Source: Lewinellaceae bacterium
Lineage (GTDB): Bacteria > Bacteroidota > Bacteroidia > Chitinophagales > Saprospiraceae
Direction: 5' to 3'
Assembly: GCA_029976695.1 (NCBI GenBank)
Contig: JARQTN010000152.1
Coordinates: 1-48,367 of the forward strand
DNA length: 48,367 nucleotides
Positions 11,906 through 12,408 of the stretch are shown piece after piece. A model generated the notes under the pieces. It saw nothing but the letters and a program-made list of their open reading frames with translations. It did not search any database and was not told the origin of the DNA. Position numbers and translations under genes: made by a program. Numbering within the stretch: the first letter of the stretch is position 1; each line of letters opens with the position of its first letter.

Positions 11906-11978
11906 AGTAGCGGAGGCCCGCCGTCGCCTTCGCAACACTCCGGCTTTGGCGGGGAAACCAGGACTTGAACCTACGACC
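11906..11978 (-). repeat. 73-bp direct repeat, copy 1 of 2
   Basis: This segment is identical base for base to 12153-12225. It consists of 20 bases of tRNA-fMet T-arm, a 42-base GC-rich insert able to fold as CCCGCC...GGCGGG, and 11 bases of tRNA-fMet 3' acceptor. Both outer parts match the intact tRNA-fMet at 12336-12408, which lacks the insert. Confidence 0.9.
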
Positions 11979-12086
11979 TTCTCTCAGTAGAAAAGCACCC
12001 CCCCTGTGTACATGCTTTACCAGGAATGATTCTTTTGTGACTATCATTTGAATACACAGGCAGGCATTGCCTGCCGGAGCTACCTG
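11906..12086 (-). pseudogene. Degenerate tRNA-fMet-like unit A
   Basis: Read on the minus strand, a D-arm-like piece (GGTAGCTCCGG, near 12086) is followed by a GGCAGGC/GCCTGCC hairpin, unrelated sequence, and then the tRNA-fMet T-arm (GGTCGTAGGTTCAAGTCCTG). The T-arm is separated from the acceptor 3' strand (CCTCCGCTACT) by a 42-bp insert. No 5' acceptor strand or CAT anticodon is present, so it cannot form a normal tRNA. Confidence 0.55.
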
Positions 12087-12110
12087 AAAAATGACTGTTC
12101 CTGTGCGCAC

Positions 12111-12148
12111 AAAAGAAAAGGGTTAGCACTAATTGGTGCTAACCCTTT
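12111..12148 (-). terminator. Rho-independent terminator after degenerate unit B
   Basis: A perfect 13-bp stem (AAAGGGTTAGCAC / GTGCTAACCCTTT, arms 12136-12148 and 12117-12129, loop 6) is followed on the minus strand by TCTTTT. It begins five bases past the 3' end of unit B. Confidence 0.8.
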
Positions 12149-12152
12149 GAAT

Positions 12153-12225
12153 AGTAGCGGAGGCCCGCCGTCGCCTTCGCAACACTCCGGCTTTGGCGGG
12201 GAAACCAGGACTTGAACCTACGACC
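12153..12225 (-). repeat. 73-bp direct repeat, copy 2 of 2
   Basis: Identical to 11906-11978. The flanks differ (TGAAT/ACC here, AAAAC/TT in copy 1), so the repeated block ends sharply. Confidence 0.9.
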
Positions 12226-12268
12226 ACCTTTCAGAAACAAAGCAGGTCTCGCCTGCCGAAGCTACTTG
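12153..12268 (-). pseudogene. Degenerate tRNA-fMet-like unit B
   Basis: On the minus strand it reads AAGTAGCTTCGG, a GCAGG/CCTGC hairpin with a five-base loop, a short linker, then the same fMet T-arm, 42-bp insert and 3' acceptor as unit A. The hairpin loop (CGAGA) is too short for an anticodon loop. It has its own terminator (12111-12148), so it may still be transcribed. Confidence 0.55.
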
Positions 12269-12291
12269 AAACACAATTGCCCAAATTCGTA

Positions 12292-12330
12292 AAATGAAAA
12301 AGGGTAACCACCGAAACGATGATTACCCTT
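12292..12330 (-). terminator. Rho-independent terminator of tRNA-fMet
   Basis: A 14-bp stem with two G-T pairs and a three-base loop (arms 12317-12330 and 12300-12313; outer AAGGGTAA / TTACCCTT) runs into a T-rich tract on the minus strand. It starts six bases past the tRNA 3' end. Confidence 0.8.
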
Positions 12331-12335
12331 ACTAG

Positions 12336-12408
12336 TAGCGGAGGCAGGACTTGAACCTACGACCTTCGGGTTATGAGCCCGACGAGCTACCAACTGCTCC
12401 ACTCCGCG
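12336..12408 (-). tRNA. Initiator tRNA-fMet, anticodon CAT
   Basis: The 73-base gene folds as a full cloverleaf. The acceptor is CGCGGAG/CTCCGCT with an unpaired C1 x T72, a mark of initiator tRNAs. The D-arm is GAGC/GCTC, and the anticodon stem TCGGG/CCCGA, with three G-C pairs next to the loop, holds CTCATAA. The T-arm is GTAGG TTCAAGT CCTGC and the discriminator is A. CCA is not encoded (CTA follows). It has its own promoter (12441-12470) and terminator. Confidence 0.96.

Follow-up and report, generated by a model that had tools for sequence, protein, structure and literature searches.

Two identical 73-bp blocks beside an initiator tRNA gene, here called A and B, are probably decayed tandem 3′ copies of the adjacent tRNA-fMet gene that were left by a GIY-YIG unit nested at the tRNA. 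They lie in a stretch of 48,367 nt, referred to below as the window. In relatives, the full unit combines an intact tRNA with a gene nearby, on the strand of the tRNA, for a small GIY-YIG nuclease of a single domain. It also has one or more partial copies of the tRNA, part of which is broken up or exchanged for a short, mostly palindromic insert. The copies and palindromes are present in the DNA itself, GIY-YIG genes share the strand of the neighboring tRNA in relatives, and there are relatives whose fMet locus carries the nuclease. A local oddity thus becomes a testable class of loci, whose split copies tRNA finders pass over.

All elements of the locus lie on the minus strand. The parent gene is an intact tRNA-fMet (CAT) at 12335-12408, identified by ARAGORN and matching Rfam RF00005 with 64 bits. 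Reading along the minus strand, the gene is followed by a terminator-like hairpin located in the sequence (12300-12330), a short palindrome (12242-12256), block B (12153-12225), a terminator-like inverted repeat with 16-nt arms that are 94% complementary (12117-12148, repeat finder), a perfect palindrome with 7-bp arms (12059-12075) and finally block A (11906-11978). Both blocks were delimited with a repeat finder and by comparison with the tRNA, and each consists of tRNA nucleotides 45-64, a 42-bp insert with 6-bp inverted arms (11917-11958 in A, 12164-12205 in B) and the tRNA 3′ end. The T-arm piece occupies 11959-11978 and 12206-12225, corresponding to 12345-12364 within the fMet gene, and its T-stem and T-loop are intact in both blocks. 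The sequence-only reading that first drew attention to this locus had the two 73-bp blocks right to the base; the same 42-bp insert indeed splits each at one and the same tRNA point, and the terminators after fMet and after B do differ in sequence. Outside the blocks, the similarity of the pair extends to 95 nt at 93% identity (repeat finder). Because hairpins and terminators differ between the two units, a duplication introduced by assembly is unlikely.

The 42-bp insert has a GC content of 69%, compared with 49% for the window, and its 6-bp arms were reached by 277 of 20,000 shuffles of the 42-mer, so that by itself it is only moderately palindromic. The further palindromes upstream of each block follow short pieces with a weak resemblance to the fMet D-arm (GTAGCT before B, GTAGCTC before A). 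The initial reading had placed D-arm-like pieces and hairpins ahead of the blocks. The palindromes are there, but the D-arm likeness is weak when set against shuffles: of 500 shuffles for each unit, 50 matched the similarity of the upstream part to fMet nucleotides 1-44 in A and 128 did so in B, neither of which is significant. We therefore reject the upstream parts as homologues of the 5′ half of the tRNA. An acceptor 5′ strand could not be recognized in either unit.

One account of these blocks, proposed in similar form by the sequence-only reading, is that they are transcribed into stable RNAs imitating a portion of a tRNA, perhaps as decoys. The retained T-stem and T-loop and the terminator-like hairpin that B has to itself would suit such a role. 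Against it, the folds of the blocks are not more stable than those of dinucleotide shuffles (block A, z 0.38; block B with its upstream palindrome, z −0.20), an acceptor 5′ strand is not recognizable, the block is found at this locus alone, and the A and B stretches matched no Rfam family at gathering score, ARAGORN and Rfam having reported just the intact tRNA genes of the window. Given the fold energies and the lack of an Rfam match, a function through RNA structure was rejected, and we regard the stable-RNA account as highly improbable.

The 73-bp block has no further copy elsewhere in the genome, and the two copies of the 42-bp insert are both at the fMet locus. A 32-bp core of the insert, allowing up to 3 mismatches, was absent from 297 other genomes of the family, and a 37-bp core had no exact match in viral_contigs and genome_contigs, collections from which records of this or very similar genomes may have been left out. 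Because the insert is unique, its descent cannot be traced. A partial match in genome G124 sits within apparent coding sequence and was set aside as chance. Searches with a T-arm/gap/acceptor pattern yielded a single genome match, which on reading was an ordinary fMet gene, and two viral matches, both unrelated. Confinement of the block to one place, lack of expression and absence from close relatives had at first been named together as signs of an inert duplication or an artefact. The block is found here only, but relatives have homologous arrangements with other hairpins.

A search of positions 11758-12488 with tblastn revealed no convincing GIY-YIG relic. The best match (E 0.004, 12402-12488) lies upstream of fMet and comes from a query open frame that reads into a tRNA, and the others had E values of 0.11 or worse. 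Because a nuclease gene is not detectable in the window, A and B are read as nuclease-less relics, an identification that we consider likely. Downstream of A, the next gene (8833-11757) also lies on the minus strand; its product is a regulator of 974 aa that combines Reg_prop and Y_Y_Y with a LuxR-type GerE domain at the C terminus. On the other side, the interval 12489-14156 holds tandem minus-strand genes for PlsC-like acyltransferases of 249 and 245 aa, both matching PF01553, which are separated by a tRNA-Ala(GGC) gene.

The missing nuclease would also be expected if the tRNA 3′ end had simply been duplicated in tandem next to chance REP-like palindromes, with GIY-YIG genes elsewhere as unrelated passengers. 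We consider such plain duplication unlikely. The 29 fMet loci of relatives were picked by a match to the T-arm, not by the presence of a nuclease, and are those fetched from 86 matching genomes (our own included); several of them are short. A GIY-YIG gene is present at five of the 29, after leaving out matches in L056, L061 and L065, which fall on tRNA-Pro genes and stem from a query open frame (L086) reading into a tRNA. Under one rule for all loci, a further piece of fMet, 10 nt or longer, occurs in 4/5 loci with GIY-YIG and in 1/24 loci without (Fisher p 0.001), which counts against plain duplication. The exception, L021, carries a 13-nt piece at a locus without GIY-YIG and counts on the side of plain duplication.

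Where the nuclease is present, the layout resembles that of the window. In L024 and L009, fMet and its terminator are followed by a GIY-YIG gene and then by a copy whose anticodon/variable region and T-arm carry hairpins, with a copied terminator. The tail of L024 consists of an anticodon-side piece, a hairpin, CGTAGGTT, a second hairpin, CCTCCGCCAC and a second terminator, making this locus the clearest parallel to the window with the nuclease gene in place. The palindromes of L009 and L024, which belong to different genera, are unlike each other and occupy the same fMet positions (by eye), another observation at odds with plain duplication. L013, the fifth fMet locus with GIY-YIG, has a hairpin-bearing degenerate copy (by eye). 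In L009, L013, L022 and L024, the hairpin-bearing copies were initially recognized by eye; a script requiring 14 nt, run on the five GIY-YIG fMet loci, reported an extra copy in L015 alone and an interrupted copy in none. A further fMet locus, L090, which came from the nuclease search, shows fMet, a GIY-YIG gene and the start of a copy at the contig end.

We also approached the question from the nuclease side. All 80 family genomes have a GIY-YIG match when long UvrC-like proteins are included. From 80 family, 149 order and 198 phylum-draw genomes we took 88 GIY-YIG loci (29 family, 30 order, 29 class/phylum); they are the best-scoring one per genome among the matches listed and hence not random, and many of the stretches end at contig ends. 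Open frames measure 76-203 aa in 85 of the 88 and are longer in L102 (672 aa), L130 (966 aa) and L148 (293 aa). An intact tRNA lies within the fetched stretch at 33 loci (13 family, 11 order, 9 class/phylum) and is absent from it at the other 55. In 33/33 the nearest tRNA is on the strand of the nuclease, at a median gap of 64 bp (range 4-711), a linkage hard to square with unrelated passengers. The tRNA is upstream of the nuclease in 26 and downstream in 7, and 17 isoacceptors are represented.

These tRNA-linked loci frequently hold pieces of their own tRNA. An extra near-exact segment of at least 14 nt was found in 27 of 33 (11 family, 10 order, 6 class/phylum), and a copy that is interrupted or has a stretch replaced in 19 (8 family, 8 order, 3 class/phylum). 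The remaining 14 had no interrupted copy passing the script, and the shuffled control, which covers interrupted copies only, gave 0. With an earlier, stricter script, 11 of 59 loci had interrupted copies, and shuffled sequence gave 0. Exact extra copies of at least 16 nt, present in 20 of the 24 tRNA-bearing loci among the first 59, all lie on the strand of the tRNA, both strands having been searched. The inserts themselves tend to fold: 22 of 33 had z below −2, with a median of −3.0, and 11 did not reach −2. This set comprises 31 inserts from relatives' loci and 2 from the Ser locus of our own genome, some of them repeated within one locus.

The position of the insert within the tRNA varies. 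A palindrome replaces the anticodon arm in L110 (Pro), L115 (Met) and L118 (Ala, by eye). In the Asp copies of L096, L109, L120 and L121 it replaces a stretch that ends just before nucleotide 51, and unlike palindromes occupy the same Asp positions in different genera, which again argues against plain duplication. A restrictive Asp hairpin pattern run over 395 genomes gave one match, an already known locus. Tandem partial copies that contain no GIY-YIG gene, as in A and B, were seen in L109 (139-bp units) and L115 (92-bp units). Hairpins were denser near the GIY-YIG gene than farther from it, at 2.18 versus 0.50 per kb in the 33 loci with a tRNA and 1.61 versus 0.38 per kb in 54 without (one of the 88 loci, with no tblastn match, was left out), a comparison confounded by the difference between intergenic and coding sequence and therefore of little weight here.

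Several individual loci deserve description. In L094, a tRNA-Glu copy with three inserts lies between two intact tRNA-Glu genes, and the third insert is approximately the reverse complement of the first two (by eye). L078 (G061:C229) contains tandem units of 543 bp, each with GIY-YIG and tRNA-Arg(CCT), whose tRNA copies are nearly full-length and carry hairpins in the regions of both the D-loop and the T-loop. At some loci that have no intact tRNA in the stretch (L117, L080, L123, L127), the GIY-YIG gene adjoins other palindromes; in L117 the palindrome GTGCCTGAGCTTGTCGAAGGCAC is on both sides of the gene. A search of plasmids with one linked nuclease returned three distant records.

Within the genome of the window itself, each tRNA (25 matches above the Rfam cut-off) was compared with its surroundings. 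Extra copies of the own tRNA adjoin fMet, Ser-TGA, Leu-CAA, Leu-CAG and Gln, and besides the window there are five further places with partial tRNA copies and palindromes. A GIY-YIG gene lies between the copies at two of these six places (Ser-TGA and contig C140) and is absent from four, the window included. The Ser(TGA) locus is ordered as tRNA nucleotides 1-21, a palindrome, nucleotides 22-45, an 82-aa GIY-YIG open frame, a second hairpin-split copy and the intact gene. In both of its 5′ copies, the break after nucleotide 21 is filled with tandem units that equal or resemble the palindrome CCCCGAAGGGATGCCTTCGG, which is confined to this locus and occurs there at four places with at most 2 mismatches. 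On C140, an N run is followed by the 3′ end of a tRNA, by a Met-like copy whose D-loop and T-arm region bear hairpins, by the GIY-YIG gene and by a further copy, so that hairpin-bearing Met-like copies flank the nuclease on both sides.

The other three places gave no GIY-YIG match. Leu-CAA has a 5′ copy split after nucleotide 18 and, behind a palindrome, a 3′ copy with a copied terminator; Leu-CAG has a 17-nt 3′ copy behind a palindrome; and Gln has a 3′ copy of 11 nt together with copied sequence from downstream, again behind a palindrome. The limits of the inserts in the Leu-CAA 3′ copy, at Leu-CAG and at Gln were set by eye, and with these included 16 of 25 inserts have z below −2. Copies without GIY-YIG at the Leu and Gln loci are what plain duplication would lead one to expect, as is the dispersal of palindromes of the form TCCCGAT..ATCGGGA in some of 15 genomes. 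Compared with a reversed control, these number 10 versus 2 in our own genome, 29 versus 1 in G003, 41 versus 2 in G009 and 11 versus 0 in G301, with counts of 0 to 9 in the other eleven.

A separate observation concerns assembly. At L041 2895-2994 (G000:C140), the N run, unassembled or masked, ends within a tRNA-like 3′ end beside the hairpin-bearing Met copies, and several contigs of this genome start or end in tRNA genes. Repeats of this kind may break assemblies at tRNA genes.

The sister loci also speak to the possibility that A and B are attachment-site remnants of an integrase-borne element that uses the tRNA 3′ end. In its favor, 3′ tRNA pieces with a copied terminator are typical of such sites. 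However, sister loci and relatives also contain 5′ copies and hairpins in the D-loop or anticodon arm, and the gene adjoining the copies in relatives is GIY-YIG. None of the four neighboring open frames scanned in the window encodes an integrase. We consider attachment-site remnants very unlikely. The initial suggestion of elements inserted at a tRNA 3′ end was right in spirit, but copies of the 5′ part occur as well. Nearest the mark of its three guesses was that of lost small genes, such as GIY-YIG genes beside tRNAs, with tails reading into tRNA-like sequence: copies in relatives do flank GIY-YIG genes, but as partial tRNA genes with palindromes and not as protein tails as such.

Returning to decayed copies left by a tRNA-nested GIY-YIG unit, the following course of events may be proposed. 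The nuclease would break the tRNA locus, or cruciforms formed there, and repair between tRNA copies would insert the unit or multiply it in tandem. One tRNA would be kept intact and the leftover copy inactivated by the palindrome. At the fMet locus, this genome would later have lost the nuclease gene, leaving A and B behind. Against this reading stand the missing nuclease relic, the untraceable descent of the insert, the tRNA-linked loci without an interrupted copy, the loci without an intact tRNA, the inserts that do not reach z below −2, the single known locus matched by the Asp pattern and the profile of the nuclease, which is nearest UPF0213 and SLX1. Spread or multiplication by breaks and repair at tRNA loci is the best-supported mechanism, with SegB as its nearest tested precedent. 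That the nuclease itself drives the copying is a tentative and somewhat doubtful proposal. The hairpins might serve as nuclease substrate, as a lock against re-cutting or as a barrier to recombination. An earlier idea, that as a general rule they protect a cutting site in the T-loop, was dropped, the T-loop being intact in A, B and several relatives.

The same-strand linkage to tRNAs and the palindrome-disabled copies of the same tRNA suggest a mobile unit that resides at essential tRNA genes. A broader reading, which we regard as quite possible, is that such selfish units are widespread, each pairing a structure-specific (UPF0213/SLX1-like) GIY-YIG nuclease with an intact tRNA and palindrome-swapped copies, and that the fMet blocks are a nuclease-less relic of one. 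The swapped part of the copy would then often be the anticodon arm, and the palindrome would be either the cruciform substrate of the nuclease or a lock against re-cutting and recombinational loss.

For the two nucleases of our own genome, the GIY-YIG domain is the sole match above cut-off, and neither matched an NCBIfam family at E 0.01. A profile built from 18 proteins, these 2 and 16 from relatives, is closest to UPF0213 (PDB 1zg2, 1ywl; E 1.8e-15) and second-closest to SLX1 (PDB 7wme, 7cq2; E 5.7e-8), with a far weaker match than UPF0213 to the homing enzyme I-TevI (E 0.003). By this profile the nuclease, a predicted DNA-cutting enzyme, is nearest UPF0213/SLX1 and not I-TevI, the homing enzyme compared. 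Because SLX1 enzymes act on branched DNA, cruciforms at the palindromes are a plausible substrate by analogy. To our knowledge, the small GIY-YIG proteins of these bacteria have no assigned role, and we know of no tRNA-linked hairpin-split copies for UPF0213/SLX1-like families.

Hairpins inserted within genes or RNA loops are familiar from the palindromic elements of Rickettsia and the double-hairpin elements of fungal mitochondria, which the present inserts resemble in this respect; we know of no link between those elements and duplicated tRNA genes with an adjoining GIY-YIG gene. REP elements, in the portion of the literature considered (PMC3733652), likewise are short palindromes, some dispersed, as here, but the 42-bp insert differs in having two copies, both at this locus. 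The single Y1 transposase match in the genome is weak (23.2 bits against a cut-off of 23). Among the literature matches listed, so far as their text was available, there was no earlier description of hairpin-split tRNA copies at GIY-YIG genes.

The closest known system is SegB, a free-standing GIY-YIG homing endonuclease of T-even phages (PMC13096335). According to the parts of that report considered here, the cleavage sites of SegB include positions inside tRNA genes, and a region holding tRNA and truncated segB is repeated in tandem (PMC13096335). Common to both is a GIY-YIG gene beside tRNA genes of many isotypes, whereas SegB is phage-borne (PMC13096335), and hairpin-split copies, present here, are not mentioned for it in those parts. 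The suggested unit would be a bacterial counterpart of SegB with hairpins in addition.
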